Part shown: piece after piece, positions 1 to 18,688 of the stretch
How the letters are laid out: each line of letters opens with the position of its first letter
How positions within the stretch are numbered: the first letter of the stretch is position 1
Assembly (NCBI GenBank): GCA_021155985.1
Contig: JAJNBA010000011.1
Span: forward strand, 1 to 38,533
From: Actinomycetes bacterium
Lineage (GTDB): Bacteria; Actinomycetota; UBA4738; HRBIN12
Reading direction: 5' to 3'
Length of the DNA stretch: 38,533 nt
Notes under the pieces: model-generated
The model's database searches: none
The model's input: only the letters and a program-made list of their open reading frames with translations
What the model was told of the DNA's origin: nothing
Translations under genes and position numbers: made by a program

Positions 1-1101
<1,101 letters not shown>

Positions 1102-1102
1102 C

Positions 1103-1522
1103 TCAGGTTCCGGTGTCGATCCGCTCCTGCACCTCGCGGAGCCGCTCCACCACGCCATGCAGGATCGCGACCGCGACGCTCGGGTTCTGGATCAGGAACG
1201 GCTCGAAGTAGATCGTCTCGATCACGAGCGCCTCGACCCGCTCCGCGGCCGTGACGCTCGCCGAGCGGCGCGTGTGACCGAGCAACGCCATCTCCCCGAA
1301 GAAGTCGCCGGGGGCGAGGTCGTGGACGGCGCCACCCACCTCCACCCGGGCGGAGCCGGACAGGAGCACGAAGAGGCCGCCGCGGTCCGAGTCTCGCTCG
1401 ACGAGCGCCTCGCCGGCGGCGAAGCTGCGGCGCTGCCCGAGCTTCGCGACCCGCGCCAGGTCGTCGTCGGTGAGCTCCTCGAAGAAGCGAACCCTCCGGA
1501 GCGCCTCGACATCCGTGGTCAT
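1103..1522 (-). CDS. Stand-alone cyclic nucleotide-binding domain protein (no HTH)
   Basis: Phosphate-binding-cassette-like GDFFGEMALLGHTRRSASVTA. About 139 aa from MTTDVEALRR, with GAGGGG upstream of the ATG at 1522. The ORF can extend to 1540. Confidence 0.85.
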   Translation of the reverse strand: MTTDVEALRRVRFFEELTDDDLARVAKLGQRRSFAAGEALVERDSDRGGLFVLLSGSARVEVGGAVHDLAPGDFFGEMALLGHTRRSASVTAAERVEALVIETIYFEPFLIQNPSVAVAILHGVVERLREVQERIDTGT

Positions 1523-1570
1523 CTCGTCCCCTCGCCGCACCTCATGCCGTCGCTCCCGTTCGGCGCGCGC

Positions 1571-3901
1571 TCATCCTAGCGAGGCGAGCTCCACGGCCTC
1601 ATCCCGTAGCCTCCGAGCGTCGGCCCGACCGCCTGCCCGGATCAGCTCCATGGAATCGCGGACGTCGGAGGGACGGTCGATCGAGACGACCGCCCGGACC
1701 CTGCCGGCCGTCATGTAGAACGCGGCGAAGCTCCTCGACTCCATGCTTCCGCGGATCACGAGGTCGTCCCATCCGTGGTGGTACCCGGCGTACTGGATCG
1801 TGTGCTCGTACTGGTCGGACCAGAACCAGTGCACCTCGTCATAGGGGGTCGTTCGCCCCAGCATGTTCAGTGCAGCGGCGCGACCCTGGCGGCGCGCGTT
1901 GTTCCAGTGCTCCGTGCGGATCCGCTCCCCGAAGACGGGATGGAAGTGCCGGGCCACGTCTCCGGCGGCGAACACGCCGTCCACGTTCGACCGGCAGTGC
2001 TCGTCGACGAGCACCCCGTCGTCCACGTCGATCCCGGATCCGTCGAGGAAGTTCGTGACCGGTTCGACGCCGAGACCGAGCACGACGAAGTCGCAGTCGA
2101 GTCGCAGGCCGTTCGCGGTGGTGACCCCACGCACCCGCCCGTTGCCCTCGAAGCCGGTCACCTGGTCGTCGAACGTCATCTCGACGCCGTGATCACGATG
2201 GATCGCCTCGAGCACGCGGCCGACCTCCTCGCCGAGGACCCGGTCGAGGGGGGCGTTCCCGCCGGCGACGACGTGCACCTCCAAGCCGCGCTGTCGGAGC
2301 GACGCCGCCACCTCGGAGCCGATGAAACCCATCCCGGCCATCACGACCCGGCGCCCGGGCACCATCTCGGCACGGATCCTCGCTGCGTCGCCGAGGGTGC
2401 GGAGGTCCAGGACGCCGGGCAGGTCGATCCCCGGGATCGGGAAGCGGCGGTTGCGCGCGCCCGTCGCGATCAGGAGCGAGTCGAACGCGATCGGGTCCCC
2501 GCCGGCGACCTCGATCGTCCTCGCGGCCATGTCAACACCGAGCACCGTCGTGCCGAATCGCGTTTCGATCCGATTGTCCGCGTAGAAGGCCTCCGGCCGG
2601 ACCATCGCCTCCTGGATCGTGGACTCCCCGCGCAGGAAGGTCTTCGACAGCGGCGGCCGCTCGTACGGGAAGGCCGGCTCCGAGCCGATGAGGACGACGT
2701 CGCCGTCGAACCCCTCTTCGCGGAGCGTCGCGGCCGCCGTGGCGCCCGCCAGGCTGGCGCCCACGATCACGAACCGGCGGTGCCCCTCTGCGGGGACCGC
2801 GCTCCGGTCGGGTGTCGGGACCGGCTCGCTGTCGGACGCCGCGAGAGCCCCGTCGGCCGACGGCGCCGACCCGCCGATCCGTTCGAGCGGCTCCGACGCG
2901 GGCCCGTGCACGACCGACCCGTCGGCGGCGTACCGCGACCCGTGACACGGGCAGTCCCAGGTCCTCGCGCTGTCGTTCCAATCGACCGTGCAGCCCATGT
3001 GGGTGCAGCGGGGTGAGAGCTCATACGTGTTGCCCTCCTCGTCCCGGTAGACGGCCAACTGCCGTCCGTCCACGCTCACCAGGCCGCCGTGGCCGGCATC
3101 GAGATCGGCGACCGAGCGGTCCACCGTCTTCACGATCAGGACGTCCGACGGCACCTCGTGCGCGACCTTGTTCGGCACCGAGCCGAGGAACCGCCGGACC
3201 CCGGCCATCCCCTTGTTGCCGACCACGACGAGCTGGACGTCTTCTGCCTCGGCGAGCTCGCAGATCCGCTGGGCGGGATCGCCGTCGACCGTCCGCTTCT
3301 GGACCTCCACATCCTCCGGCTTGGCAGACGTGACCTCCTCGAGCTTGATCGCGCCCACGAGCGGATCGCCCACATGCACGAGGATCACCGACCCGGCGTA
3401 CACGGAGGCGAGCGTGTACGCCTTGCGCACGGCCTCGGTCGCCGTACCCGACCCGTCCGTTCCCGCCAGGATCCTCGAGTAGGGAGGCGCGGGTTCGCGG
3501 GGACCGGCGCGACCGGTCGTGTCCACGATGAGCAGGTCGCACGGCGCGTCGTGCGCGACCCAGTCCGGAACGCTCCCCAGCCGGAAGCGGGTCGCCTGGC
3601 CCATCCCGCGGTTCCCGACCACGATCAGGTCGGCGTCGTGCTTGATCGCCGCGGCCAGGATCGACTCCCCCGGGGTGCCTTCGATCAACTCGGCCGTGGC
3701 ATCGACCTTCTTCGCTCGCGCGTGCTCCGCGGCTTCGTAGAGCGCCGTCTGCAGAGGCTGCCGGGACACGCCGTAGGCGTCGAGTGCCCCGACGAGGACC
3801 AGCCGTCCGCGGAGCCGCTTCGCGAGCTTCTGCGCCACCTCGACGGCGACCGTCGCCGTCGGTGAGCCGTCGGTGCCCACGACGATCGTTCGGTAGGGCA
3901 T
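1571..3901 (-). CDS. UspA-UspA-Rieske [2Fe-2S]-FAD/NAD(P) ferredoxin-reductase-like fusion protein
   Basis: Single 776-aa ORF. Usp1 (IVVGTDGS...VVGNRGMG), Usp2 (ILAGTDGSGTA...VVGNKGMAG), Rieske ligands CTHMGC...CPCH, then FAD/NAD Rossmann motifs (VIVGASLAG, VVMAGMGFIGSE, GVFAAGDVA). Confidence 0.9.
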   Translation of the reverse strand: MPYRTIVVGTDGSPTATVAVEVAQKLAKRLRGRLVLVGALDAYGVSRQPLQTALYEAAEHARAKKVDATAELIEGTPGESILAAAIKHDADLIVVGNRGMGQATRFRLGSVPDWVAHDAPCDLLIVDTTGRAGPREPAPPYSRILAGTDGSGTATEAVRKAYTLASVYAGSVILVHVGDPLVGAIKLEEVTSAKPEDVEVQKRTVDGDPAQRICELAEAEDVQLVVVGNKGMAGVRRFLGSVPNKVAHEVPSDVLIVKTVDRSVADLDAGHGGLVSVDGRQLAVYRDEEGNTYELSPRCTHMGCTVDWNDSARTWDCPCHGSRYAADGSVVHGPASEPLERIGGSAPSADGALAASDSEPVPTPDRSAVPAEGHRRFVIVGASLAGATAAATLREEGFDGDVVLIGSEPAFPYERPPLSKTFLRGESTIQEAMVRPEAFYADNRIETRFGTTVLGVDMAARTIEVAGGDPIAFDSLLIATGARNRRFPIPGIDLPGVLDLRTLGDAARIRAEMVPGRRVVMAGMGFIGSEVAASLRQRGLEVHVVAGGNAPLDRVLGEEVGRVLEAIHRDHGVEMTFDDQVTGFEGNGRVRGVTTANGLRLDCDFVVLGLGVEPVTNFLDGSGIDVDDGVLVDEHCRSNVDGVFAAGDVARHFHPVFGERIRTEHWNNARRQGRAAALNMLGRTTPYDEVHWFWSDQYEHTIQYAGYHHGWDDLVIRGSMESRSFAAFYMTAGRVRAVVSIDRPSDVRDSMELIRAGGRADARRLRDEAVELASLG

Positions 3902-4690
3902 CTACGCGACCTCCACGGAGCCGTCCATCTGCGGATGCACGTCGCATCGGAAGTAGTACGCACCGGGGTCAAGCGCCGGCACGTCGTACGTCACCGTCTC
4001 GGCGCCGGCGATCAGGTCGCCGACGAACAGCGACTCCTCCGCGGAGTCGTCCCGGTAGATCGCGACATTGTGCTGTACACCGCCGTCTCGATTGTCGAAC
4101 GCCAGCTCCACGGGCTCGTTCGCGGGCAGCCGGAGCACGTCCGGGACGAACGCCTGGTCGTCGAACGCGCAGACGGTGATCGTGGCCGTTCCCACGGGAC
4201 ATTCCGGGACGCCACCGAAGCCGAGCGTCGGCTTGAAGATCATCAGCCACAGGATCACGAGCAACCCGACGAACCCGATGGCCGCGATCGTGTAGGGCCG
4301 CTTCGATCGGAGGATCTCCTCGAACTGAGACCTCGAGACGGCTTCCGTCCCGCCCACCATCGCGCCGGAGATCGTCCTCAGCCGTTTCGCCCACGTGGTG
4401 CCCATCGCATACATCGCGGCCATGACGAGGACGAGGACGACGATCGCCGCCCAGATCCACCCCTGACCCCAGAACTGCCCGGTGAACCCGGCAGCGATCC
4501 CGCCGATGAGCAGGATGCCGATCGAGTTCCACATGAATCCGACCGACGACGCCGAGAGCTCCAGCAGCTGGCTCACGCGTGCCGGGTCGCGCTCCTTCGG
4601 GAGCCGAAGCGTCACGTAGGCCGAGACGCCGTGCGCCATCAGGAACCCGAACGCCCCGGCGATGTGGAGGAAGACCCACCAGCGATGCAT
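3902..4690 (-). CDS. Multi-TM membrane protein with C-terminal cupredoxin (type 1 Cu) domain
   Basis: N-terminal TM helices (MHRWWVFLHIAGAFGFLMAHG...). C-terminal cupredoxin with ligand-like H (GVQHNVAIY) and C-x2-H-x2-M (CDVHPQM). Stop is directly adjacent to the start of the downstream gene. Confidence 0.8.
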   Translation of the reverse strand: MHRWWVFLHIAGAFGFLMAHGVSAYVTLRLPKERDPARVSQLLELSASSVGFMWNSIGILLIGGIAAGFTGQFWGQGWIWAAIVVLVLVMAAMYAMGTTWAKRLRTISGAMVGGTEAVSRSQFEEILRSKRPYTIAAIGFVGLLVILWLMIFKPTLGFGGVPECPVGTATITVCAFDDQAFVPDVLRLPANEPVELAFDNRDGGVQHNVAIYRDDSAEESLFVGDLIAGAETVTYDVPALDPGAYYFRCDVHPQMDGSVEVA

Positions 4691-4693
4691 CCG

Positions 4694-4864
4694 CTAGCCC
4701 TCCCCCACGGTGACGGCGCCGGCCGTGGAGGTGTCACGAGCAGCCTCCTTCTTCCGGATCTGGCGCATCACGAGCCGCTCCAGGACGAACACCAGCGTGG
4801 CCATGAAGATGCCGACGAGCCACCGCTCGAACCGCCGGAGTGGGGACCGAGGCGTCGAGGTCAC
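4694..4864 (-). CDS. Small (56 aa) single-TM protein
   Basis: GTG start overlaps the upstream TGA (GTGA). VTSTPRSPLRRFERWLVGIFMATLVFVLERLVMRQIRKKEAARDTSTAGAVTVGEG has one hydrophobic helix with basic flanks. Confidence 0.6.
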   Translation of the reverse strand: MTSTPRSPLRRFERWLVGIFMATLVFVLERLVMRQIRKKEAARDTSTAGAVTVGEG

Positions 4865-5616
4865 CCGGCGGACGCCTCTCGCGCGTCCTCGATCCGGACG
4901 AGGATCCAGAACCCGATCCCAGCGGCGATCGCGAGCCACGACCAGGCGGTGTCGTCGGGGGCTCCCGCGTAGTCCGCGAACACGAGCCCGGCGACGCCGA
5001 ACAGGACGGCCGCGAGCGCCGTCACGACCCCCGTCACCTGCCACCCGACGCCGCGGAGCGACGTCGCGAGCGCGGCGCCCGCGACGGCCAGAGCCGAGAC
5101 GGCCACCCCCGACCAGTGATGGAACTCGACGTGGGGATCCGTCGCCGGCCCTTGCTGGAGCTCCGCGTTGATCACCGCGTAGATCCAGGCCGGGATCGTC
5201 CCGAGCAGGGCGTAGGTGAGCAACGCCACGCTGGGCCGACCCGGGAGTCGGAGGAGCGACCGGGGGGCGGGGTGCAGGATCGCGAGGAGCACCATCCCGA
5301 GAGGCGCGATGAAGAGCAATCCCGACACCAGGTCCCCGCCCATCAGCCCACCGAACGTCCACGCGAGCGCCTGCGCGACCAGGACGTGCCAGACGGCCGT
5401 CCATCCGGGCCGCAGCACGAACAGGATCGAGAACACACCGATCAGACCGCCACCGGCGAAGCCGCCCAGGTTGTGGAACCGGTGGCTCTGGGCCCCGGGA
5501 TCGCTTGACAGGATCGAGTCCACGATGAAGAAGAGGGAGTAGCCGATCGTGAGCACACCGAGGACCCAGCCGACGATCCGGAACGCGAGTGAGCTGCTCG
5601 TCGATCCGGTCTCCAT
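4861..5616 (-). CDS. Multi-pass membrane protein of unknown function
   Basis: 251-aa ORF with several hydrophobic helices (RIVGWVLGVLTIGYSLFFIVDSIL...). AGGGGG upstream of the ATG. Co-directional with neighbours. Confidence 0.75.
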   Translation of the reverse strand: METGSTSSSLAFRIVGWVLGVLTIGYSLFFIVDSILSSDPGAQSHRFHNLGGFAGGGLIGVFSILFVLRPGWTAVWHVLVAQALAWTFGGLMGGDLVSGLLFIAPLGMVLLAILHPAPRSLLRLPGRPSVALLTYALLGTIPAWIYAVINAELQQGPATDPHVEFHHWSGVAVSALAVAGAALATSLRGVGWQVTGVVTALAAVLFGVAGLVFADYAGAPDDTAWSWLAIAAGIGFWILVRIEDAREASAG

Positions 5617-5630
5617 CCCGCGCTGCCCCC

Positions 5631-7706
5631 TCAGTCTCCGTCGATCGGCACGTGACCGGTGACGGTCGTGCCGCGGCCCGGCGCCGAACTGATCTCGAGA
5701 GAGCCTCCCACGGCCGCGAGCCGGTCGGCCATGCCCTGCAGCCCCGAGCCGGCCACGACGCCGTCGGGGTCGAAGCCTCGGCCATCGTCCACGACCTCGA
5801 ACGACAGGTCGCCGTTCGACCGGGTCAGATGGACGACCGTGAGCGCGGCGTCCGCGTATTTCGCGACGTTCTGGAGTGCCTCGAGGGTGCAGAAGTACAC
5901 CGTGGCCTCGATCTCGGCGGAGAACCGTCCGAGCCCGTTCCCGTCGACCTCCACACCGAGCCGGCTCTTCCGCGACTGCGCCTCGATCGCGGCCACGAGG
6001 CCGCGATCCGCGAGCAGCGGCGGGTAGATCCCCCGTGCCAGGTCGCGCAGATCCTCGAGCGCCGTCTGCGTCTCGGATTCGATCTGATCGAGCATCTCGA
6101 CGGCCTTCGCCGGATCCCGTTCTGCGAGCTGCTTCGCCAGCCTCGCCTTCACCGCGAGGGCCACGAGCTGCTGCTGGGCGCCGTCGTGGATGTTCCGCTC
6201 GAGACGCCGGCGCTCTTGGTCCTGGGCTGCCACGAGCCGCTGTCGAGAGGTCCTCAGGTCCTCGACCAGGCGCACGTTGCGCAGGACCAAGCCCGCCTGC
6301 GCGGCGAGATCCGCGACGAGCTTGTCCTTCGTCGGACTCATGGGGTCCGCGGGCGGCATCCGAACGGACAGCGCCCCGAGGAGCTCGCCACGGTCCCGGA
6401 CCTCCACCACATGCTCGCCCGGGATCCGGAGCGGGCCGCCCTGATGGCGGACCGGCTCAGCTGGGGCAGCGTCGACGGGCCACGCGGCCGCTGGTCGGAG
6501 CTCCGCGCCGACGAGGAGCCACACCCTCGCCGTCTCGGCGCCCGTCCCCTCTCCGAGAACCTGGGCCATCCGCGGGAGGACGTCCTCCGTGGCGTAGGAG
6601 GTGCGCATCCGATCCGAAAACTCCGCGAGCACCTCGTACGGGGTCGCTCGCTTCCCGTAGACGAGCCGGTCGGCGAATCGGCGGGCGACACGCATCACCG
6701 GGCGGAACGCGATCCCGAGCGCCAGGGCGACCGCGAACAAGGCGCCCGTGTTCCCGCGGTCGGCGGTCAGAGAGGCCAACAGCGCTACCGCGCCCGCGTA
6801 GACGGCGAGGGCGAGGACGACGAGCGTGGCGACGACGACGGCCTTCTTCACCACGACGTCGAGATCCCAGAGGCGGTACTGGAGGATCGCGATCCCGACG
6901 GCAACGGGGAGCCCGAGCAGTGCGAGACCCGACATGAACTCCCCGAGGTCTCCCTCTGAGATGCCGAGCCACTCGAGCATCGCGCTCAACACGAAGTAGA
7001 TGACCAGCACGACGACCGCGAACGCGAACCACTTGAGCTGCTGCCGCTCGACGCCCCGCGATCGTCGGAACCGCATGATCATCGAGACGACGGCGAGGAG
7101 GAAGAGCCCCAGGAGGGCGGGCCACAGGCCCACCTCGAGCCAGGCCGGCGGTTCGAGGGCCGGCACGTGGAGCGGATTCGCGAGCTGCCCCGATCCGTCG
7201 GTCGTGAGCTCGAGCTCGGAGATGCCGAACCCGAGGACCAGGAACGCGAGCGCGGACAGGGCGAACCCCGCCCATTGGAGCGGCCGCCAGCGCTCTGACG
7301 GAACTCGCCCGTCGGGGAACCACAACGGCAGCAAGATCAGCAGCGGGAACAGGGCGACCGCCCACAACGCCGTCCCCGTCCAGCCCACCCACGCCGCTGC
7401 CGATCGCGACCCGTGTTCGAGGAGGTATATCGCCCACTCGGCGCTCGCGAATGCGACGGCCACGACGGCCGCCACCCACAGCAACAGGACCCCGATCCGG
7501 TTGCTGGGGGCACGGCTCAGGCTGAGAGCGCCGACGACGCCCATCCCCATGAACGCCAGGAAGTTCGTGCTGTCTCCGATGAGGGGATCACCGTTCAACG
7601 ACAGGAAGACGAGTCCCGAGGTCGCGACCGAGAACGCTGCGGCGAGTACGACCCACGGCCAGCGAGCAGGTCGGGGCGCGGGATCGCTCGCCGCCATCGC
7701 GCTCAC
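5631..7706 (-). CDS. Sensor histidine kinase (multi-TM N-terminus, GAF-like region, HisKA_3-type, HATPase)
   Basis: H-box LERNIHDGAQQQLVAL, N-box EALQNVAKYA, DDGRGFDPDG, GSGLQGMADR. GTG start overlaps the upstream gene stop. Confidence 0.92.
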   Translation of the reverse strand: MSAMAASDPAPRPARWPWVVLAAAFSVATSGLVFLSLNGDPLIGDSTNFLAFMGMGVVGALSLSRAPSNRIGVLLLWVAAVVAVAFASAEWAIYLLEHGSRSAAAWVGWTGTALWAVALFPLLILLPLWFPDGRVPSERWRPLQWAGFALSALAFLVLGFGISELELTTDGSGQLANPLHVPALEPPAWLEVGLWPALLGLFLLAVVSMIMRFRRSRGVERQQLKWFAFAVVVLVIYFVLSAMLEWLGISEGDLGEFMSGLALLGLPVAVGIAILQYRLWDLDVVVKKAVVVATLVVLALAVYAGAVALLASLTADRGNTGALFAVALALGIAFRPVMRVARRFADRLVYGKRATPYEVLAEFSDRMRTSYATEDVLPRMAQVLGEGTGAETARVWLLVGAELRPAAAWPVDAAPAEPVRHQGGPLRIPGEHVVEVRDRGELLGALSVRMPPADPMSPTKDKLVADLAAQAGLVLRNVRLVEDLRTSRQRLVAAQDQERRRLERNIHDGAQQQLVALAVKARLAKQLAERDPAKAVEMLDQIESETQTALEDLRDLARGIYPPLLADRGLVAAIEAQSRKSRLGVEVDGNGLGRFSAEIEATVYFCTLEALQNVAKYADAALTVVHLTRSNGDLSFEVVDDGRGFDPDGVVAGSGLQGMADRLAAVGGSLEISSAPGRGTTVTGHVPIDGD

Positions 7707-8986
7707 GCGGGATCTCCCACGATCCGGAAGACCTCGACCGGCTCTTCACGGCCTTTCACGACACGGGGGCCGATCGGCTCGGCGGCGACCGAAGGAGCCG
7801 CCGAGACGGTCGAGGCCGCGGCGACGACCTCGCCTCCTCCCGCCTCGGATTGCAGGCGCTGCGCTACGTTGACCGCGTCCCCGATCACCGTGTACTCGAG
7901 ACGCCCACCGCCACCGATGGCGCCGGCCATGACGACGCCGGTGTTCAACCCGATGCCCACGTGGAGTCCGTCGACCGAGTCGGTCCCCCACCCCATCGAG
8001 TTGAGCTCGCGTTGGCGATCCTGCATGGCGAGCGCGCAGTGCAGCGCGCGTTCGGCATGATCCTCGGACGGCTCGGGCGCGCCGAACACGGCCATCACGG
8101 CATCGCCCTGGAACTTGTCGATCGTGCCGCCATGCTCGGAGATCACCTCGGCCATCGCGCCGAGGTGACGTCCTACGATCTCGCCGATCTCCCGGGCCGT
8201 GAGCCGCTCCGCGATCGTCGAGAACCCTCGGATGTCGCTGAACAGCACGGTGACCTCGAGCTCGCGCTGGCTCGCGGCGTCGCCGCCGCGAGCCAGCGCG
8301 TCCACGAACTGCGACGGCACGTAGGACTTGAGGGACGTGGCGGTCGCCGAATGCTCGACCACGGCCGCATGCAGCTTCTTGAACTCCCCGAGGAGGCCGG
8401 TGCCGGCTTCGCCGTCACCGGCCATCCGCCGGAAGAGCATCGTCACACGCCCGTCCACCGCCTCCTGGGTCGTGCTGAGGGCCGCGGCCATCGCCTCGTA
8501 GCCGAGGCCCTGGGCCATCATGTCGAGCACGATGCGGTCCTCCTCCTGGGACTCGGCACGGCCGGAGAGACGCTCGGCGATCGCGGGGTCCACGACGCTC
8601 CCGCCGCTGCGCACCTCCCGGATCGCACGGGCGAGCTCGTCGCCCTGCGCGATCCGGTCCTTCAGGAGGTACGCGAGCCCGCTGTGACCTTTGCCGAGGA
8701 GCGCGATCGCGTACTCCTCGTCGTCGTGCGCGGAGAGGACCACGACACCCGTGTCCGGATGGCGCTCGCGGATCGCGTGTGCGCAGTCAATCCCTTCGAG
8801 CTGGAAGGACGGCGGCATCTTGATGTCGGTCACGACGACGTCGGGGCTGTGCTCCGCCGCCGTCGCGAGGAGCGTCGGCGCGTCCTCGGCGACCCCGACG
8901 ACGTCGATGTCTTCGTAGGAGTTCAACAGCGCGCGCACGCCTTCGCGAACCAGGACGTTGTCTTCGCCGAGCACCACCCGGATCAT
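7703..8986 (-). CDS. Response regulator with REC, degenerate LuxR-type HTH and class III nucleotide cyclase domain
   Basis: REC: MIRVVLGEDNVLVREG...VVTDIKMPP...YLLKD. Cyclase: TVLFSDIRGFS, DKFQGDAVMAVFG, YTVIGDAVNVAQRL. The listed ORF extends to 9142, but homology starts at ATG 8986. Confidence 0.9.
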   Translation of the reverse strand: MIRVVLGEDNVLVREGVRALLNSYEDIDVVGVAEDAPTLLATAAEHSPDVVVTDIKMPPSFQLEGIDCAHAIRERHPDTGVVVLSAHDDEEYAIALLGKGHSGLAYLLKDRIAQGDELARAIREVRSGGSVVDPAIAERLSGRAESQEEDRIVLDMMAQGLGYEAMAAALSTTQEAVDGRVTMLFRRMAGDGEAGTGLLGEFKKLHAAVVEHSATATSLKSYVPSQFVDALARGGDAASQRELEVTVLFSDIRGFSTIAERLTAREIGEIVGRHLGAMAEVISEHGGTIDKFQGDAVMAVFGAPEPSEDHAERALHCALAMQDRQRELNSMGWGTDSVDGLHVGIGLNTGVVMAGAIGGGGRLEYTVIGDAVNVAQRLQSEAGGGEVVAAASTVSAAPSVAAEPIGPRVVKGREEPVEVFRIVGDPA

Positions 8987-9039: not shown

Positions 9040-9705
9040 ATGCCGCTGCGGGTGGTCTTCGCCGAGGATAACTACCTCGTGCGCGAAGGAACCGCCGCCC
9101 TCCTCGCCACCGCCGGCGAGGTCGAGATCGTCGGCACCGCATCCACCCTCGATGAGCTGCTCTCGGCGGTCGACGAATACGGACCCGACGCGGTGCTCAC
9201 GGACATCCGCATGCCGCCCAGCGGGAGCGACGAGGGCATCCGCGGCGCGAAGCAGATCCGGGCCTCGCACCCCGAGATCGGCGTCGTCGTCCTGTCGCAG
9301 TTCGCGGAAGAGGAGTACGCGTACGACCTGCTGAAGGACGGCGCGGCCGGCCTCGGCTACCTGTTGAAGGAGCGAGTGGCCGACGTGGAGGAGCTGGTGC
9401 GCGCCCTGACCGAGGTGGCCCGCGGCGGGAGCGTGCTCGATCCGAAGATCGTCGAGGCGCTCGTCGCCGCGAAGGAGCACCTTGCCCACTCGCCCCTCGC
9501 TCGATTGACCGATCGGGAGCGAGAGGTGCTCGGACACATGGCGCAAGGGCAGAACAACGCCGCGATCGCGAAGTCGCTCTTCCTCACGGAGCGCGCGGTG
9601 GAGAAGCACATCAACTCGCTGTTCCACAAGCTGGGCCTGACCGAGGAGGCCGACGTGCATCGCCGGGTGATGGCGGTGCTCGCCTTCCTTCGCGATCAGA
9701 CCTAG
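9040..9705 (+). CDS. NarL/LuxR-family response regulator
   Basis: REC (MPLRVVFAEDNYLVREG...VLTDIRMPP...YLLKE) plus LuxR HTH (LTDREREVLGHMAQGQNNAAIAKSLFLTERAVEKHINSLFHKLG). ATG 9040 preferred because a -10-like TACCAT at 9028-9033 lies inside the longer ORF starting at 9025. Confidence 0.92.
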   Translation: MPLRVVFAEDNYLVREGTAALLATAGEVEIVGTASTLDELLSAVDEYGPDAVLTDIRMPPSGSDEGIRGAKQIRASHPEIGVVVLSQFAEEEYAYDLLKDGAAGLGYLLKERVADVEELVRALTEVARGGSVLDPKIVEALVAAKEHLAHSPLARLTDREREVLGHMAQGQNNAAIAKSLFLTERAVEKHINSLFHKLGLTEEADVHRRVMAVLAFLRDQT

Positions 9706-9716
9706 GGTTCCCATCG

Positions 9717-10124
9717 TTACTGCGCCCGCCGCGTGTCGACGATGTAGACGCTGCAGGGAGCGTGCCGGAGCACGAGGTTGGGGACCGTCTCGCGGACGCG
9801 CCAGCGTGAGCCGTGCGTCCCTCGATTCCCCAGCACGATCGTGTCCGCCCGGATCTCCTCGGCCACGTCGACGATCCGAGACGCGGCGTCGCCGTCCTCG
9901 ATCCGAGTCGTGATCGGCAAGCCGGGGAACCTCGCGGCCAACCGACGCAGGTGCGACTGGGGATCGGCCGCGCGGTCGGGGTCAACGACCGCCCGCACGT
10001 CACTCTCGGACTTCACGTACAGGACCAGGAGCTCGGCACCGCGATCGCGGGCGAGCCGCGCCGCGTCCTCCACCGCGAGATCCGCGGCCGCCGAGGTGTC
10101 GGTTCCCACAAGGATCGTCGTCAT
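9717..10124 (-). CDS. UspA-family universal stress protein
   Basis: MTTILVGTDTSAAADLAVEDAARLARDRGAELLVLYVK...IVLGNRGTHGSRWRVRETVPNLVLRHAPCSVYIVDT. SD GGAGG upstream of ATG 10124. Confidence 0.9.
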   Translation of the reverse strand: MTTILVGTDTSAAADLAVEDAARLARDRGAELLVLYVKSESDVRAVVDPDRAADPQSHLRRLAARFPGLPITTRIEDGDAASRIVDVAEEIRADTIVLGNRGTHGSRWRVRETVPNLVLRHAPCSVYIVDTRRAQ

Positions 10125-10303
10125 CTGAGAGCCTCCTTCGTTCGTCACCGCGACGCTACGCCGCGCCCAGCGGCGTGACGACGGCGCGGCCATGCCGAAT
10201 CCGCCGGGGTGCCAGCACACCCCCGGACCGGGTGTTCTCGCACCGGAAGCCGCAGGTCGACGCCCTTGGAGGGACCACACGCCGATGGGACGATGCCCTG
10301 GTC

Positions 10304-12358
10304 ATGGCGGATGGACGAACTTCCTCCCGGCTCGCGTGGTCCCTCGCCGCGCTGACAGTCGCCTTCATGGTGCCGGCGATCGTGTTCTTGGTGCTCGGTC
10401 TCGGCACGCCCCCGCCGGAGGCCGTCTTCGGGTTCCGCGGGTGGGGGCTGCTGCTCGCGGCCGCGTTCGCGGTCGCGGGCCTGTTGATCGCGTCGAGGGT
10501 CCCGTCCAATCCGATCGGATGGATCCTCCTCGTGGCCGGCGTCGGCACGGCGATCCAGGAGCTCGCCCAGCAGTACGCGCTCTACGGTCTCTACCACGCA
10601 CCCGGAGCTGTCCCGGCGGCCCAGGTCGGCGCGTGGGTGACGGAGTGGGTGTGGATCCCCTACATGGCCGCCGTGGCGTTCGTGGTCCCGATGATCTACC
10701 CGACCGGGCGACTGCTCTCGTCGACGTGGCGGCTCATCCTCATCGTCGGCCTGATCGCGGCCGCGCTCGGCACCCTGTGCTTCGCGCTCGCTCCCGGTGA
10801 GCTCGAGAGCTCCCCAGGCGTTCAGAACCCCCTCGGTGTCCGCGGTGCGGACTGGATCCGGACGATGGGTGACGTCGTGATGCTGACCTTCGCGGCTGCG
10901 CTACTGAGCGGCATCGGGTCCCTCGCGCTCCGCTACCGGATCTCCTCGGCAGACGAACGGCAGCAGGTGAAATGGCTCCTGCTCGGCCTGTCGCTACTCG
11001 CCTCGACGTTCCTCATCGGTGTCCCGTACTGGACGCTCGGCGGTGAGGGAGCCTCTTCGCTGGACGTCGTCGAGAACCTGCTCGTCCTCGCGATCGCATC
11101 GATCCCCGTGACGATCTGCATCGCGATCCTGAAGTACCGTCTCTACGAGATCGACGTCGTCGTGAAGAAGACGGCCGTCTACGCGGTCCTGGCGCTCCTG
11201 TTGTTCGTCCTCGGCATCCTCCCCGCTTGGGCGATCGCGGGCGTCGTGTTCGAGAGCACGAACGACGGCTTCGTCTACATGCTGTCGGGGATCGCGGTCG
11301 GGCTGGCGGTGTGGCCGCTTCGTCGGGTCGCGACCCGTCTCGCCGATCGGATCGTGTTCGGGCGCCGCGCGACGCCGTACGAGGTCCTCAGCGAGTTCTC
11401 CGGACGGGTCGCCGAGACCTATGCCGCCGATGACGTGCTCGAACGGATGGCGCAGGTCCTCGGCGAGGGCGTGGGCGCCGATCGTGCGACGGTGTGGCTG
11501 CGGATCGGCGACCGATCTCGGGCGGCCGCGACGTGGCCGGGCGGCGAGACCGTGGGAACCGACGTGCCGGCCGACGCCGTGGAGGTCCGCCATCAGGGCG
11601 AGGTCCTCGGCGCCCTGTCGGTGCGGATGCCGGCGAACGATCTCATGACGCCGGCCAGGGAGCGGCTGATCCGCGACCTCGCGGCCCAGGCCGGCCTCGT
11701 CCTTCGGAACGCGTCCTTGATCGAGGACCTCAAGGCCTCGCGGCAACGACTCGTGACGGCCCAGAACGAGGAACGGCGACGGATCGAGAGGAACATCCAC
11801 GACGGCGCGCAGCAGCAGCTGGTCGCGCTCGCCGTGAAGCTGAAACTCGCCGACTCCCTCGTCGGCCAGGACGACCAGCGCGCACACACGATGCTTGCCG
11901 ACCTGCAGACGGACACGAGCCAGGCGCTGGAGGACCTGCGAGATCTGGCGCGGGGCATCTACCCGCCCCTGCTCGCGGACAAGGGTCTCGGCGCCGCGCT
12001 GGAAAGCCAGGCTCGGAAGTCGGCGGTTCCCGTCACCGTCGAGGTCGACGGGATCGGCCGCTATCCGCAGGAGGCGGAGGCCGCCGTCTACTTCTCGTGC
12101 CTCGAAGCCCTGCAGAACATCGCCAAGTACGCGGAGGCGACTGCCGCCACGATCCGGCTCTCGCAGACGAACAGCACCCTCAGCTTCGAGATCACCGACG
12201 ACGGTCTCGGCTTCGACCCGGACGCCACCGGGCACGGCTCCGGCCTCCAGGGGATCGCGGACCGTCTCGCCGCGCTCGGGGGCGAGTTCGTCCTGCGCAC
12301 CGCGCCCGGCCGGGGCACAACGATCCGCGGCACCGTCCCCGTGGGGGAGGGGCCGTGA
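10304..12358 (+). CDS. Sensor histidine kinase (multi-TM, GAF-like, HisKA_3-type, HATPase), paralogue 2
   Basis: MADGRTSSRLAWSLAALTVAF...; IERNIHDGAQQQLVAL; EALQNIAKYAEA; DDGLGFDPD. Confidence 0.92.
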   Translation: MADGRTSSRLAWSLAALTVAFMVPAIVFLVLGLGTPPPEAVFGFRGWGLLLAAAFAVAGLLIASRVPSNPIGWILLVAGVGTAIQELAQQYALYGLYHAPGAVPAAQVGAWVTEWVWIPYMAAVAFVVPMIYPTGRLLSSTWRLILIVGLIAAALGTLCFALAPGELESSPGVQNPLGVRGADWIRTMGDVVMLTFAAALLSGIGSLALRYRISSADERQQVKWLLLGLSLLASTFLIGVPYWTLGGEGASSLDVVENLLVLAIASIPVTICIAILKYRLYEIDVVVKKTAVYAVLALLLFVLGILPAWAIAGVVFESTNDGFVYMLSGIAVGLAVWPLRRVATRLADRIVFGRRATPYEVLSEFSGRVAETYAADDVLERMAQVLGEGVGADRATVWLRIGDRSRAAATWPGGETVGTDVPADAVEVRHQGEVLGALSVRMPANDLMTPARERLIRDLAAQAGLVLRNASLIEDLKASRQRLVTAQNEERRRIERNIHDGAQQQLVALAVKLKLADSLVGQDDQRAHTMLADLQTDTSQALEDLRDLARGIYPPLLADKGLGAALESQARKSAVPVTVEVDGIGRYPQEAEAAVYFSCLEALQNIAKYAEATAATIRLSQTNSTLSFEITDDGLGFDPDATGHGSGLQGIADRLAALGGEFVLRTAPGRGTTIRGTVPVGEGP

Positions 12359-14400
12359 GGAGAAGTACCTCCTTCTGGCTCGCGTGGGGCTCGTTCGTCA
12401 TCGATATCGCACTCCTCGTATGGAGTTTCGTCCTCGCGACGGGCGCGGCGTCCGGAGAGAAGGACTTCATCGTCATCTACGGAGGGATCGGTTTGGTCCT
12501 CGGCTACGGTGGTGTCGGCGCGCTGATGGCCTCGCGGCGGCCGGGCAATGCGATCGGATGGCTCTTCTGCGCGACAGCGACGGTATTCGCTCTGTCTGCG
12601 TTCGCAGATGAGTTCGTGACCCGCGGGCTCGTCACCGGTTCGATGGCGTTCGTCATCCCGATCGCCTGGTTACAGAGCTGGCTCTTCGTCTTGGCGCTGG
12701 AATCGATCCCGCTCGTCCTGGTGCTGTTCCCGGATGGCCGGCCGCCTTCGCGCAGATGGCGCCCCCTCGTCTGGGCGATCGCTAGCCTGACGGTCCTCGC
12801 CGTCCTCGGCTTCGTTCTTTCGCCGAACGAGCTGGAGACGCCCGAGCGCTTCCATCTCGAGAATCCGACCGCGATCGAGCCGCTCGAACCACTCGCGGAC
12901 GTCTTCCTGACGGTCGGCGGCATCGGATCGCTCGTGGCGGCGCTCGCAGCACTGACGGCCCTGGTTCTCAGGTTCAGGAGGTCGTCCGGGGACGAGCGCC
13001 AACAGATCCGATGGCTGGCGTACGTCGGCATCGCAGCGCTCGTGCTCATGGTCGGCACCTTCGCCACCGAGAGCAACGTCGTCGTGAACAACGTCCTCTT
13101 CTTCCTGCTCTTCATCGTGCTGGCGATCGGCGTCCCTGCGGCCATCGGCACCGCGATCCTGAAATACGGCCTCTACGAGATCGACCTCGTGATCCGGAGA
13201 ACGATCGTCTACGCGGCCCTCGCGGCGTTCGTCACGGTCGTGTACGTGAGCATCGTGGTCGGCGTGGGAGCCGCCGTCGGTAGCCGCGGGAACACGATCC
13301 TCTCGGCGGCGGCGGCGGCCGTCGTCGCATTGGCTTTCCAGCCCGCACGTCGCCGGGCCCAGCACCTCGCGAACCGCCTCGTCTTCGGGAAGCGGGCGAC
13401 GCCGTACGAGGTCCTGTCGACGTTCTCCGACAGGCTTGCCGATGCCTACTCGGTGGACGACGTGCTTCCGAGGATCGCGCGCGTCCTCGCAGAGGGGACC
13501 GGCGCCGAAGAGGTGACCGTCTGGCTCCGCGTCGACGACCGATTCCGTGCTGCCGGGTCGTGGCCGAGCGACGCGCCCACTACCGCTACGGACGTGGATC
13601 GACTTCCAGATCCAAGCTTCGAGGTCCGTCATCTAGGAGAGGCCCTGGGCGCGATCTCCGTCACGATGCCCGCGAACGAGCGGATCACCGCGGCGCAGGA
13701 GAAACTTGCCGCCGAGGTGGCGGCGCAGGCGGGTCTCGTGCTACGCAACGTTCGGCTCGTGGAGGAGCTGAGGGAGTCGCGTCGTCGGATCGTCGCAGCC
13801 CAGGACGATCGCGCGAAGAAGCTCGAGCGGAATATCCACGACGGCGCGCAGCAGCAGCTGGTCGCGCTCAGGGTGAAGGCCCGTCTGGCCCGGCAGCTCG
13901 CCGCCCGAGACACCGCCAAGACCGAGGAGATGCTCGCCCAGATCGAGGAGGACACCCAACACGCGCTCGAGGACCTCCGCGATCTCGCACGAGGGATCTA
14001 CCCGCCCCTCCTCGCGGACAAAGGGCTGCCGGCGGCGCTGGCGGCGCAGGCACGGAAGGTGCCCATCCCGACCCAGGTGGCCGCCGACGGGATCGGTCGG
14101 TTCGAACCTGAGGTGGAGGCCACGATCTACTTCTGCACCCTGGAGGCGCTTCAGAACGCCACCAAGTACGCACAGGCGTCGACCGTCGACGTCTCCCTGC
14201 GCCAGGATGACGGCGTCGTCGAGTTCACCGTCGCCGACGACGGGCGCGGGTTCGATCCCGGCGTGACGAACCTCGGGACGGGGCTGCAGGGAATGGTCGA
14301 CCGTGTCGAGGCGATCGGCGGAACGATCGAGATCGAGAGCGCCACGGGAGCCGGAACTACCGTGCGTGGACGTATCCCGGCGACGGAGATGACGCGATGA
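12355..14400 (+). CDS. Sensor histidine kinase, paralogue 3
   Basis: GTG start at 12355 overlaps the previous TGA (GTGA). LERNIHDGAQQQLVAL, EALQNATKYAQA, DDGRGFDPG. Upstream in-frame extension to 11494 overlaps paralogue 2 and is rejected. Confidence 0.9.
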   Translation: MRRSTSFWLAWGSFVIDIALLVWSFVLATGAASGEKDFIVIYGGIGLVLGYGGVGALMASRRPGNAIGWLFCATATVFALSAFADEFVTRGLVTGSMAFVIPIAWLQSWLFVLALESIPLVLVLFPDGRPPSRRWRPLVWAIASLTVLAVLGFVLSPNELETPERFHLENPTAIEPLEPLADVFLTVGGIGSLVAALAALTALVLRFRRSSGDERQQIRWLAYVGIAALVLMVGTFATESNVVVNNVLFFLLFIVLAIGVPAAIGTAILKYGLYEIDLVIRRTIVYAALAAFVTVVYVSIVVGVGAAVGSRGNTILSAAAAAVVALAFQPARRRAQHLANRLVFGKRATPYEVLSTFSDRLADAYSVDDVLPRIARVLAEGTGAEEVTVWLRVDDRFRAAGSWPSDAPTTATDVDRLPDPSFEVRHLGEALGAISVTMPANERITAAQEKLAAEVAAQAGLVLRNVRLVEELRESRRRIVAAQDDRAKKLERNIHDGAQQQLVALRVKARLARQLAARDTAKTEEMLAQIEEDTQHALEDLRDLARGIYPPLLADKGLPAALAAQARKVPIPTQVAADGIGRFEPEVEATIYFCTLEALQNATKYAQASTVDVSLRQDDGVVEFTVADDGRGFDPGVTNLGTGLQGMVDRVEAIGGTIEIESATGAGTTVRGRIPATEMTR

Positions 14401-16637
14401 GCCCCCGGCTGGCGCGCGCGATCGCCGCGGGCATCGTCGCCCTGTGTGTGACGACGACGGCAGCGTCGATTCCCATCGGGCTCGCCGCGCGCGAGCGGAT
14501 CGAGCCGGGCGAGATCGTGATCGTCGGCAACCCGACCGCCCCGGAGATGCGGAGCGCCCTGGCCGAGCTCGAACGGGAGCGCGAGGCGGGAGAGGCCCTG
14601 ACGGAGACCACGCAGGGGTTCAACCCGTTCTTCGGCGCGGTCGTCGTCCTCTTGATGCTCTGGCTCGGTGTCGGTCTCCTGATCGTGTGGCGCCAACCCC
14701 GGAACTGGGCGGGATGGCTCTTCCTGATCACCGGCGCGCCGTTGCCCCTACTGACACTGGTCCAGGGACTGACGATCTACGGGGCCAAGGCCGATCCCGG
14801 CTCCGTGCCCCTGCTCGGGCTATGGGCCACCGTCGGTGAGTACCTGATCTATCCGATCGCCCTCCTGCCGCTCCTCTTCCTACTCTTCCCCGACGGCCAC
14901 CCGCCGAGCCGGCGCTGGCGTTGGGCCGTCCGCGGCCTCGTCGGAGGAACGGCCCTGGCCGTCGTCGGCTTCCTCGTCGCGCCCGGCCCCTTCAACGCCT
15001 ACCTCACGGACGGGATCCTCTACGAGAACCCGATCGGGATCGACGCCCTCGGCGGCGTCGCACCGCTGGTGATCCTCATCGGCGCGCTGGTCGCCCTGGC
15101 ATCGGCGTTCTCGACGGTGGTCGCGGTCCGCCAGCGGTTCAAGGCCGCGGTCGGCGAGGAGCGTCAGCAGATGCGCTGGCTGGCGTTCGTGGCGTCGTTC
15201 GCCGGCGCGTGTTTCGCGCTCCAGTGGGTCCTCGGGGGGATCGCGGAGTTCTTCTTCCACGACGAGGACGCGCCGATCTTCGGGCTCTTCTTCGCGCTCA
15301 CGGCTTTCTCGCTCGTGATCGGTCTCCCCGCGGCGTACCTGATCGCGATCTTCCGTCACGGACTCTGGGACCTGGACGTGGTCGTGAAGAAGACGGTCCA
15401 GTACGGCGTGCTCGTTGCGGGGTTCATCGCGATAGTGGGACTCGTCGTCGTGATCGTTCCCGTCCTGTTCGTCGGTGTCGGGGCCGATGTCGGGTTCGTT
15501 CCGGTGCTCGTCGGAGGCGTCGTCGTCGCGGTCGGGTTCAACCTCATCCGATCGCGTGCCCGGCGCTGGGCGAATCGGATCGTGTACGGGAAGCGGTCGA
15601 CCCCGTACGAGGTGCTGTCGGCGTTCGCGGAGCGAGTGGGTGGGACGTACTCGGTCGACGATGTCCTCCCTCGGATGGCGCAGCTGCTCGGGGAAGCGAC
15701 CGGCGCTCGGGCGGCGCGGGTCTGGCTCCGCATCGGCAACGAGATGCGTGCGGAAGCGTCGTGGCCCCTGGACGCGCCGGAGGCGACGAGCGTGCCGGTC
15801 CGTGGGGACGAGCTGCCGCCCTTCGGTGACGAGGAGGCCTTCGAGGTCCGGCACCAAGGGGACCTCCTCGGGGCGCTCACGGTCTCCCCCTCCGCGGCGG
15901 ACCCGATGAACCCGACGAAGGCGAAGCTCGCGCGTGACATCGCGTCGCAGGCGGGCCTGGTCCTCCGCAACGTCCGGCTGATCGAGGACCTCCGCGAGTC
16001 GCGCCGTCGGATCGTGAGCGCGCAGGACGAACGCGCCCGCAAGCTCGAGCGGGACATCCACGACGGCGCCCAGCAGCAGCTCGTGGCGCTGTCGGTCCAG
16101 CTGCGCCTCGCCGAGGGCATGGTCGATCGCGATCCCGCGAAGGCCCGAGGGCTCCTCGCCGATCTCCAGGCGCGCACGGTCGAAACGCTCGAGGATCTCC
16201 GAGACCTCGCACGAGGCATCTACCCGCCGCTCCTCGCTGACAAGGGACTGTCTGCCGCGCTCGAGGCACAGGCGAGGAAGTCGCCTTTCCCGGTCACCGT
16301 GGAACCCGACGCCGTCGGTCGCTACGGTCCGGATGTCGAGTCGGCCGTGTACTTCTGCTGCCTGGAGGCGCTGAACAACGTCGCGAAGTACGCCGACGCA
16401 TCGACCGTCGAGATCCGACTCGCGCAGGCGAACGGCGAGCTTCGTTTCGAGGTGACCGACGACGGCCGGGGCTTCGAGACTTCGGGGTCCGGCCACGGCA
16501 CGGGACTGCAAGGGATGGCGGACCGGCTGGATGCGATCGGAGGCCTGCTCGAGATCCGGAGCGCTCCCCATCGCGGGACCACGATCTTGGGCAGGATCCC
16601 CGCCTCAGCGGCAAGGGAAGTGGGAACGGAAGGATGA
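14397..16637 (+). CDS. Sensor histidine kinase, paralogue 4, with an extra ~60-aa likely extracytoplasmic loop near the N-terminus
   Basis: ATGA overlap with the previous gene. LERDIHDGAQQQLVAL, EALNNVAKYADA, DDGRGFE. Confidence 0.92.
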   Translation: MSPRLARAIAAGIVALCVTTTAASIPIGLAARERIEPGEIVIVGNPTAPEMRSALAELEREREAGEALTETTQGFNPFFGAVVVLLMLWLGVGLLIVWRQPRNWAGWLFLITGAPLPLLTLVQGLTIYGAKADPGSVPLLGLWATVGEYLIYPIALLPLLFLLFPDGHPPSRRWRWAVRGLVGGTALAVVGFLVAPGPFNAYLTDGILYENPIGIDALGGVAPLVILIGALVALASAFSTVVAVRQRFKAAVGEERQQMRWLAFVASFAGACFALQWVLGGIAEFFFHDEDAPIFGLFFALTAFSLVIGLPAAYLIAIFRHGLWDLDVVVKKTVQYGVLVAGFIAIVGLVVVIVPVLFVGVGADVGFVPVLVGGVVVAVGFNLIRSRARRWANRIVYGKRSTPYEVLSAFAERVGGTYSVDDVLPRMAQLLGEATGARAARVWLRIGNEMRAEASWPLDAPEATSVPVRGDELPPFGDEEAFEVRHQGDLLGALTVSPSAADPMNPTKAKLARDIASQAGLVLRNVRLIEDLRESRRRIVSAQDERARKLERDIHDGAQQQLVALSVQLRLAEGMVDRDPAKARGLLADLQARTVETLEDLRDLARGIYPPLLADKGLSAALEAQARKSPFPVTVEPDAVGRYGPDVESAVYFCCLEALNNVAKYADASTVEIRLAQANGELRFEVTDDGRGFETSGSGHGTGLQGMADRLDAIGGLLEIRSAPHRGTTILGRIPASAAREVGTEG

Positions 16638-18688
16638 TCGCGAACGTGAAGCGATGGGTGCCGTGGGTGCTCTACGCGATCCTCGTCGGTCTGATGACGC
16701 TCGCGCTCTGGATGACGAGCGTGAACGACTCATTCGAAGCGTTCGTCGCGCTGGCGATCCTGATGATGCTCGGGTACGGGACGGTCGGCGCGTTCCTCGC
16801 GTCTCGCGGGCGAGGGGGCTTGCTCGGTTGGCTGATGCTCACGCTCGCCCTCGGTTTCGTGCTGACGGGGATCACGGATGAGATCCTCCGCTATCGGTAC
16901 GTGACCAGCCCCGCCTCCTCGGTACCGCTGGCAGGGGTCGCGGCATGGCTCACGAACTGGCTGTTCATCCTGGTCTTGATCCCGATCCTCCTGATCCTGC
17001 TGCTCTTCCCGACAGGTCGGGCGCAGTCCCCGAGATGGCGTTGGCTGCCGCCGACGATCGTCGTGACGTCGGTCCTCGCCGCGCTGGGGACGATGCTCCA
17101 GCCGGGCCCGATCGACTTCGACGGGGCGAGGATCCTCAACCCGACGGGCGTCGAAGTCCTGAAGCCGGTCACCGACCTCCTCCTCCGCATCACGGGCTTC
17201 GCCCTCCTCCTCTTCGCCGTGCTTTCGGTCGTGTCGGTGTTCCTGCGGTTCCGGCGTGCCAGCGGGGACGAGCGACAGCAGATCCGGTGGCTGGCCTACC
17301 TCGCGCTCCTCGGGATCGTTCTGCTCGCCGGGGCGATCGTCTCCGGGATCACGACGGGCGAGTCGCCGCTGAGCGAGGTCTCCTTCCTCGCGCTCTTCGC
17401 CGTGGTGGGCGTGGCCTTCCCCGTCGCCATCGGCGTCGCGATCCTCAAGTATCGGCTCTACGACCTGGATCTCGTGATCAAGAAGACGGTCCTGTACTCG
17501 ATCCTCGCGCTCGTGCTCGTCGGCCTCTTCCTCCTCTCGGCAGCCGTCCTCGGGGGAGCCTTGATCGAGGCGGATCCCGCGACCATCGTGGCGTCCGTCG
17601 CGATCGGGCTCGCGTTCTGGCCTGCGACCCGTCTCGCGCGTCGTCTCGCCGACCGCATCGTCTACGGCGGACGTGCGACCCCGTACGAAGTGCTGACCGA
17701 TTTCTCGGAGCGCGTGGCCGGCTCGTACGCGGCTGAGGACGTGCTGCCCCGCATGGCCAGGATCCTCGCCGATGCCGTGGGGGCCAACCAGGCGACCGTC
17801 TGGCTCCGTGTGGGCCCGGAGCTCCGGCCCGCGGGCCTGTCATCGGCGGACCAAGCAGCGCCGGCCGCCGTTCCGATCCACGGGGACGCTCTTTCGGCGC
17901 TCCCCGGTGAAACCGCCGTCGAGGTGCGCGACCAAGGGGCGCTCCTGGGCGCGTTGACCGTATCGATGCCCGCGAACGATCCGATGAACCCGGCGAAGGA
18001 GAGGCTCGTCCGGGATCTCGCGTCCCAGACGGGGCTGGTCCTGCGGAACGTGAGGCTGATCGAGGAGCTACGCGCCTCACGGCAGCGGCTCGTGGCGGCC
18101 CAAGACGAGGAACGACGTCGGCTCGAGCGCAACATCCATGACGGAGCACAGCAGCAGCTCGTGGCGCTCACCGTGAAGCTCCGACTGCTCGAACAGATCG
18201 CCGCCCGCGACCCGGCGAGGGCGACCGAGATCGCCGCCCAGCTCCAGGCGGAAGCGACCGCCGCGCTCGATGATCTCCGCGATCTCGCGCGCGGGATCTA
18301 TCCTCCGCTGCTCGCGGACAAGGGACTCCCCGCCGCGCTGGAGGCGCGGGCGCGGAAGTCACCGGTTCCGGTCTCCGTCGACGCCGGTGAGCTCGGCCGG
18401 TTCTCCCAGGACGTCGAAGCGGCGATCTACTTCTCGTGTCTCGAGGCGCTGCAGAACGTGACCAAGTACGCGGAGGCCTCGCGGGTCCAGATCTCACTCG
18501 CTCGGAGCAACGGCCGGCTGGCGTTCGAAGTCACCGACGACGGTGTGGGCTTCGACCCCGCTACCGCCTCGTACGGCACCGGGCTGCAAGGGATCGCGGA
18601 CCGGCTGGATGCGCTGGGCGGCACGTTCGCGATCGTGAGCACCCCCGGCGGAGGGACGACGGTCAACGGGAGCGTGCCGGTCTCTTAG
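16634..18688 (+). CDS. Sensor histidine kinase, paralogue 5
   Basis: ATGA overlap with the previous gene. LERNIHDGAQQQLVAL, EALQNVTKYAEA, DDGVGFDP. Confidence 0.92.
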   Translation: MIANVKRWVPWVLYAILVGLMTLALWMTSVNDSFEAFVALAILMMLGYGTVGAFLASRGRGGLLGWLMLTLALGFVLTGITDEILRYRYVTSPASSVPLAGVAAWLTNWLFILVLIPILLILLLFPTGRAQSPRWRWLPPTIVVTSVLAALGTMLQPGPIDFDGARILNPTGVEVLKPVTDLLLRITGFALLLFAVLSVVSVFLRFRRASGDERQQIRWLAYLALLGIVLLAGAIVSGITTGESPLSEVSFLALFAVVGVAFPVAIGVAILKYRLYDLDLVIKKTVLYSILALVLVGLFLLSAAVLGGALIEADPATIVASVAIGLAFWPATRLARRLADRIVYGGRATPYEVLTDFSERVAGSYAAEDVLPRMARILADAVGANQATVWLRVGPELRPAGLSSADQAAPAAVPIHGDALSALPGETAVEVRDQGALLGALTVSMPANDPMNPAKERLVRDLASQTGLVLRNVRLIEELRASRQRLVAAQDEERRRLERNIHDGAQQQLVALTVKLRLLEQIAARDPARATEIAAQLQAEATAALDDLRDLARGIYPPLLADKGLPAALEARARKSPVPVSVDAGELGRFSQDVEAAIYFSCLEALQNVTKYAEASRVQISLARSNGRLAFEVTDDGVGFDPATASYGTGLQGIADRLDALGGTFAIVSTPGGGTTVNGSVPVS

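Follow-up and report, generated by a model that had tools for sequence, protein, structure and literature searches.

Seven closely packed genes on the minus strand of an actinobacterial contig (JAJNBA010000011.1, positions 1103-8986) raise the question whether they encode one system that leads from signalling to redox chemistry or belong to neighbours that happen to abut. The window, i.e., the whole analysed stretch of 38,533 nucleotides, comes from a metagenome-assembled genome (MAG) of an Actinomycetes bacterium with 2.67 Mb in 139 contigs. The original prediction, made from the window alone, had described one operon in which a histidine kinase (HK) controls a nucleotide cyclase through its receiver domain (REC), and a local cyclic-nucleotide-binding (CNB) protein receives the cAMP on behalf of a copper/Rieske redox module. 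The genes and their anatomy are real, and this interpretation is partly supported. The run is, with a probability of about 0.72, a composite of two independently conserved modules that abut, a sensor/cyclase operon (Module A, 4694-8986) and a redox cassette (Module B, 1103-4690, minus strand), because relatives have the signalling genes without the redox genes, and the redox pair is found at different places in other genomes. Module B probably came to lie downstream of Module A through insertion.

The seven-gene run and its relatives

Besides the 26 other genomes of the order, a search with the main proteins covered 34 more from the phylum; the neighbourhoods of the matches were retrieved, and the window genes were mapped onto them. 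A check of the open reading frames returned all seven minus-strand genes with the tight junctions previously described: a GTGA overlap between the cyclase and HK genes, 14 bp between the HK gene and a gene for a multi-transmembrane (multi-TM) protein, a further GTGA overlap between the latter and a 56-aa gene, 3 bp from there to the DUF2269-cupredoxin gene, 0 bp to the Usp-Usp-Rieske-FAD gene and 48 bp to the CNB gene, if counted from its ATG start, or 30 bp from an upstream GTG. Neither an intrinsic terminator-like nor a sigma-70-like site was found within the run, and a single transcript across the seven genes is possible as judged from the sequence.

Six genomes of the same family (G001, G003, G004, G006, G013, G014), whose cyclase orthologues share 73-78% identity, contain the REC-cyclase gene, the multi-TM or kinase gene and the 56-aa gene in this order, followed by a convergent UbiB gene, with the 56-aa stop codon 6-15 bp from the UbiB stop codon and no cassette in between. 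In the window, the same two genes are 3,592 bp apart, and this distance is filled exactly by the DUF2269-cupredoxin, Usp-Usp-Rieske-FAD and CNB genes. The UbiB/ABC1-like gene (1-1101, plus strand, assigned with Pfam), which is syntenic in the relatives, forms the left edge of the insertion site. On the other side of the cyclase gene, the six genomes have a LuxR gene and a Usp gene, except for G013, where the contig ends inside the cyclase gene. Two more family genomes (G002, G012) contain a cyclase orthologue with no adjoining cassette genes in the part seen. Module B, in turn, is found among unrelated neighbours: a DUF2269-cupredoxin gene followed by a Usp-Usp-Rieske(-FAD) gene occurs in eight genomes of the order (G008, G017, G019, G020, G021, G024, G025, G026) and, outside the order, in G049 and G056, while in G023 the pair is cut at the contig start. 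Modularity, synteny and residue conservation are what the comparison shows, and the simplest account of the position of Module B would be an insertion between UbiB and the final gene of Module A.

That all seven genes nevertheless form one dedicated system, in which the cAMP of the HK-driven cyclase is received by the local CNB protein to control the copper/Rieske module, is very unlikely. Their common direction and terminator-free junctions would fit such a system, as would the intact residues of cyclase and CNB protein and the recurrent position of the CNB gene beside Usp-Usp-Rieske/DUF2269 genes; however, the neighbourhood is unconserved, as none of the other 26 genomes of the order was found to have the seven genes in this order, and the one-system reading is therefore unsupported. 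Furthermore, there are eight family genomes with a cyclase orthologue in which the cupredoxin and CNB genes have no orthologue, and the source genome encodes many other cyclases and CNBs. The co-occurrence of the three components gave a divided result in Fisher tests across the 27 order genomes, none of which was phylogeny-corrected, so that kinship is ignored: the cyclase was associated only weakly with the cupredoxin gene (P = 0.16, not significant) and with the CNB orthologue (P = 0.057), whereas cupredoxin gene and CNB orthologue occurred together in 8 genomes, alone in 2 and 1, respectively, and were both missing in 16 (P = 1.7e-4). The CNB gene adjoins Usp-Usp-Rieske genes in 5 of about 25 loci as opposed to 0.7 expected, again with kinship ignored, and two pairs among these five loci share ancestry, which leaves perhaps two or three independent cases. 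On these sequence comparisons the CNB-redox association is suggestive, while the chain from cyclase to CNB to redox proteins is unsupported.

The seven-gene order could also be old, if the redox/CNB cassette were ancestral at this site and had been lost in other family members. The Usp-Usp-Rieske tree places the window copy beside that of G008 of its own family (support 95/86), so that the family may have had the cassette for a long time, and its composition is native; yet separate losses in several genera would be needed, each leaving a gap of 6-15 bp, the G008 copy is surrounded by different genes and lacks a matching CNB gene alongside, and Module B is located elsewhere in other families, which makes this history unlikely. 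A recent transfer of the cassette from family f4 was also considered, but the trees decide neither for nor against it: in the Usp-Usp-Rieske tree, the window copy and that of G008 lie within a mixed clade. Recent foreign DNA was considered on the basis of composition and rejected, as the tetranucleotide profile of the cassette is ordinary (rank 52 of 88). An erroneous join of two unrelated contigs might be suspected in a 139-contig MAG that comes without reads, but it is extremely improbable, because the expected flanks, UbiB and the 56-aa gene, enclose the cassette on both sides and its composition is not deviant; in addition, the genes abut at sensible spacings of 1-3 bp.

Three observations weigh against the composite of two modules as described here. 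When present in relatives, the redox genes lie on other contigs than Module A, and since these relatives are fragmented MAGs, a different contig alone is weak evidence; the flanks in the family genomes and the unrelated genes that surround Module B are the stronger evidence for modularity. The DUF2269 profile (PF10027) matches the window protein over its full length with 25.1 bits against a cut-off of 28, although the G020 orthologue exceeds it with 29.2 bits. Finally, one transcript could run across gaps as short as 3, 0 and 48 bp, so that a functional coupling of the modules may have evolved in this lineage; in the source genome, the promoter of Module A may also drive transcription of Module B. 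An operon-like run in a single genome is easily over-read, and it is the comparison that yields two modules and a clean insertion site.

The sensor/cyclase operon

The first gene of Module A (7703-8986, minus strand) encodes a 427-aa protein composed of REC, a degenerate helix-turn-helix (HTH) of the NarL/LuxR type and a class III nucleotide cyclase, of which REC and Guanylate_cyc are matched by Pfam above cut-off. In the alignment of 13 orthologues, the phospho-acceptor Asp, Ser/Thr and Lys of REC (D54, S85, K109) are invariant, as are D251, D295, D370, N373 and R377 of the cyclase, while K291 is conserved in 12 of them. The two metal-binding Asp, the K/D substrate pair pointed out in the original prediction and the Asn/Arg of class III adenylyl cyclases are thus all present. 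The established rule for class III enzymes, in which a K/D pair goes with ATP as substrate, predicts ATP here too. Relatives in the PDB are bacterial adenylate cyclases and NarL/DevR, and the linker between REC and cyclase is homologous to NarL/DevR as far as the HTH. Pfam supported all domains named beforehand (REC, cyclase, HK, cupredoxin, both Usp, Rieske, FAD reductase and CNB) apart from this HTH, for which the GerE profile gave no match in the window protein and weak matches in only 5 of the 13 orthologues; a weak sigma-70-region-4-like HTH is detectable in 12 of the 13. A model of the whole fold from the single sequence was discarded because of a mean predicted local distance difference test (pLDDT) value of 46.

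The membrane histidine kinase (5631-7706, minus strand, 691 aa) has about nine hydrophobic segments and matches HisKA_3 and HATPase_c above the Pfam cut-off. It is followed by the multi-TM protein (4861-5616, minus strand, 251 aa, 7-8 hydrophobic segments), a homologue of which occupies the same position in three relatives (L099 of G003, L100 of G001, L113 of G002), and by the 56-aa single-TM protein (4694-4864, minus strand), the last gene of the conserved operon; neither belongs to a Pfam family. Divergent from the cyclase gene lies a NarL/LuxR response regulator (9040-9705, plus strand), which is paralogous to the REC of the cyclase protein and is a conserved partner of Module A, as the window and all 13 other order genomes with readable context (14 loci) have it in this position. 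The proposed control of the cyclase by the HK through REC is probably correct, because, of the 8 family genomes in which the context can be read, 7 have the HK gene next to the REC-cyclase gene, the REC and catalytic residues are intact, and the divergent LuxR regulator accompanies them in all 14 loci. In the scheme we propose, the membrane kinase would phosphorylate REC, with class III adenylyl cyclase activity as the output, and the LuxR-type regulator, which the HK may also serve, would provide a parallel transcriptional branch. A response regulator with a degenerate NarL-type HTH that is continued by a class III cyclase looks undescribed; it is a testable case of a regulator apparently converted into an adenylyl cyclase and retained opposite its LuxR paralogue.

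Beside the divergent regulator, a Usp gene (9717-10124, minus strand) is followed by four tandem HisKA_3-type kinase genes (10232-18688, plus strand). The region 9040-18688 is conserved in relatives, so that two response regulators and about five kinases are encoded at a single locus. In G049 (L111, 2384-14546), the REC-cyclase gene is followed by one small gene and five tandem genes for proteins of about 800 aa.

The redox cassette and the CNB protein

The largest protein of Module B (1571-3901, minus strand, 776 aa) contains two Usp domains, Rieske, Pyr_redox_2 and Reductase_C, all above the Pfam cut-off. The full-length fusion is present in G017, G023, G024 and G026, and is cut by the contig end in G025. 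In G019 and G020, the FAD reductase is encoded next door by a gene of its own, and the 776-aa protein therefore looks like a fusion of neighbours. The motifs CTHMGC and CPCHGS (CxHxGC and CPCHGS with both extra Cys) occur in all 28 aligned sequences, and the Rieske cluster is, by motif, of the bc1/b6f high-potential type. The reductase part matches putidaredoxin/BphA4-type reductases, and Rieske-FAD proteins as such are common. Both Usp domains rank Rv1636/MSMEG_3811 (PDB 5ahw/1tq8) among their top PDB matches, and Usp1 retains the equivalents of the ligand-contact residues Gly10 and Gly114 throughout the cupredoxin-linked clade. These contact glycines are non-specific, being present in further Usps that the genome encodes, so cAMP binding by the Usp pair was not adopted and is kept as a lead only. 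A further, apparently Usp-like segment forms the C-terminal part of an APC-type permease (30609-32963).

The adjoining membrane protein (3902-4690, minus strand, 262 aa) combines a DUF2269-like domain of four helices with a C-terminal type-1 copper cupredoxin (Cupredoxin_1, above the Pfam cut-off), which the positive loops place outside. His9 and His20 in helix 1 are invariant among the orthologues, the copper ligands H207, C249, H252 and M255 are kept in 11 of 11 cupredoxin-bearing orthologues, and the modelled cupredoxin domain matches amicyanin and auracyanin (mean pLDDT 72.7). A second Usp-Usp-Rieske clade in family f1 lies beside a DUF2269 protein without cupredoxin. To our knowledge, DUF2269 has no assigned function, and the recurrent cassette suggests one.

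The stand-alone CNB protein (1103-1522, minus strand) matches PF00027 with 59 bits against a cut-off of 27.5, its phosphate-binding cassette FGEMALL..RRSA is intact with Glu and Arg present, and its relatives are the CNBs of PKA, PKG and CRP. It is accordingly a predicted cyclic-nucleotide binder. Its link to the redox module, part of the original prediction, holds insofar as the gene recurs beside DUF2269/Usp-Usp-Rieske genes, but nothing points to it in particular as the protein that receives the signal of this cyclase. The genome has 35 cyclase-domain and 18 CNB-domain matches, which argues against a private pairing of the two, and its cAMP probably forms a common pool. One of the 35 is a 1117-aa protein (25771-29124) with an N-terminal zinc-ribbon-like segment, a class III cyclase and an ATPase/TPR-like region. 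The CNB tree places the window copy with f2-f4 orthologues, though with no firm resolution. The f4 orthologue mostly occupies a constant position next to a small conserved gene for 77-79 aa, with a phosphoribosyltransferase gene adjoining where the context could be read. Between a pair of phosphoribosyltransferase genes and the CNB gene with this small neighbour (L120, L122, L131, L133), G026 has the redox pair, G019 has it in the opposite orientation, and G020 and G021 lack it; the cassette appears to move, with no recombinase visible.

Taken together, the Usp-Usp-Rieske-FAD and DUF2269-cupredoxin proteins are a predicted nucleotide-sensing electron carrier from NADH to cupredoxin. Electrons would pass from NADH via FAD to the high-potential Rieske cluster on the cytosolic side and through the DUF2269 four-helix domain to the extracytoplasmic type-1 copper, with an adenine-nucleotide input via the Usp pair and possibly the CNB protein. 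The enzyme activities, this path, its nucleotide control and co-transcription of the modules are what we infer. Through the cassette, an extracytoplasmic copper carrier may be connected to NADH and the nucleotide state of the cytosol. No paper describing a Usp-Rieske fusion was found in open-access text, and such a fusion beside a DUF2269-cupredoxin membrane protein looks undescribed. It is quite unlikely that these two proteins and the CNB protein constitute a cAMP/ATP-gated transmembrane NADH:cupredoxin oxidoreductase brought under a phosphorelay-driven adenylyl cyclase by operon insertion; if true, this would be a new kind of respiratory-type device.

Comparison with known systems

The cyclase regulator resembles Rec-GGDEF diguanylate cyclases (PMC8041772) in having a REC input on a nucleotide cyclase, here with the likely cognate HK next door, and it shares the K/D substrate residues with bacterial class III adenylyl cyclases (PDB 2w01, 6fht, 3r5g). 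It differs from both in the degenerate NarL-type HTH that separates its REC from its cyclase, and in being encoded divergently from a paralogous full LuxR regulator. Proteins combining a cyclase homology domain (CHD) with LuxR, such as Rv0386, are known with the order CHD-AAA-LuxR without REC, whereas the order in the window is REC-HTH-CHD. The combination of a cyclase and a LuxR-type HTH in one protein is common to both (PMC3466318).

With fusions of Rieske and ferredoxin reductase, the 776-aa protein shares the FAD/NAD reductase fold with Reductase_C and the Rieske domain. AIFM3-like proteins are such fusions. The window protein, with reductase relatives in PDB 3lxd, 1q1r and 1d7y, differs in its two N-terminal Usp domains and its Rieske type. 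The cAMP-binding mycobacterial Usps Rv1636/MSMEG_3811 (PMC11107214) differ from the window Usps, which are fused tandem domains. For the membrane protein, the urate oxidase PuuD offers an analogy: it consists of a DUF989 membrane domain with a C-terminal cytochrome c outside, and a distant similarity between DUF989 and DUF2269 has been described (PMC4562309). Both have a Nout-Cout membrane domain with a C-terminal extracytoplasmic electron-transfer domain, a likeness of analogy with weak homology; in the window protein, a cupredoxin replaces the cytochrome c, the membrane domain has four helices, and a separate NADH-Rieske protein is added.

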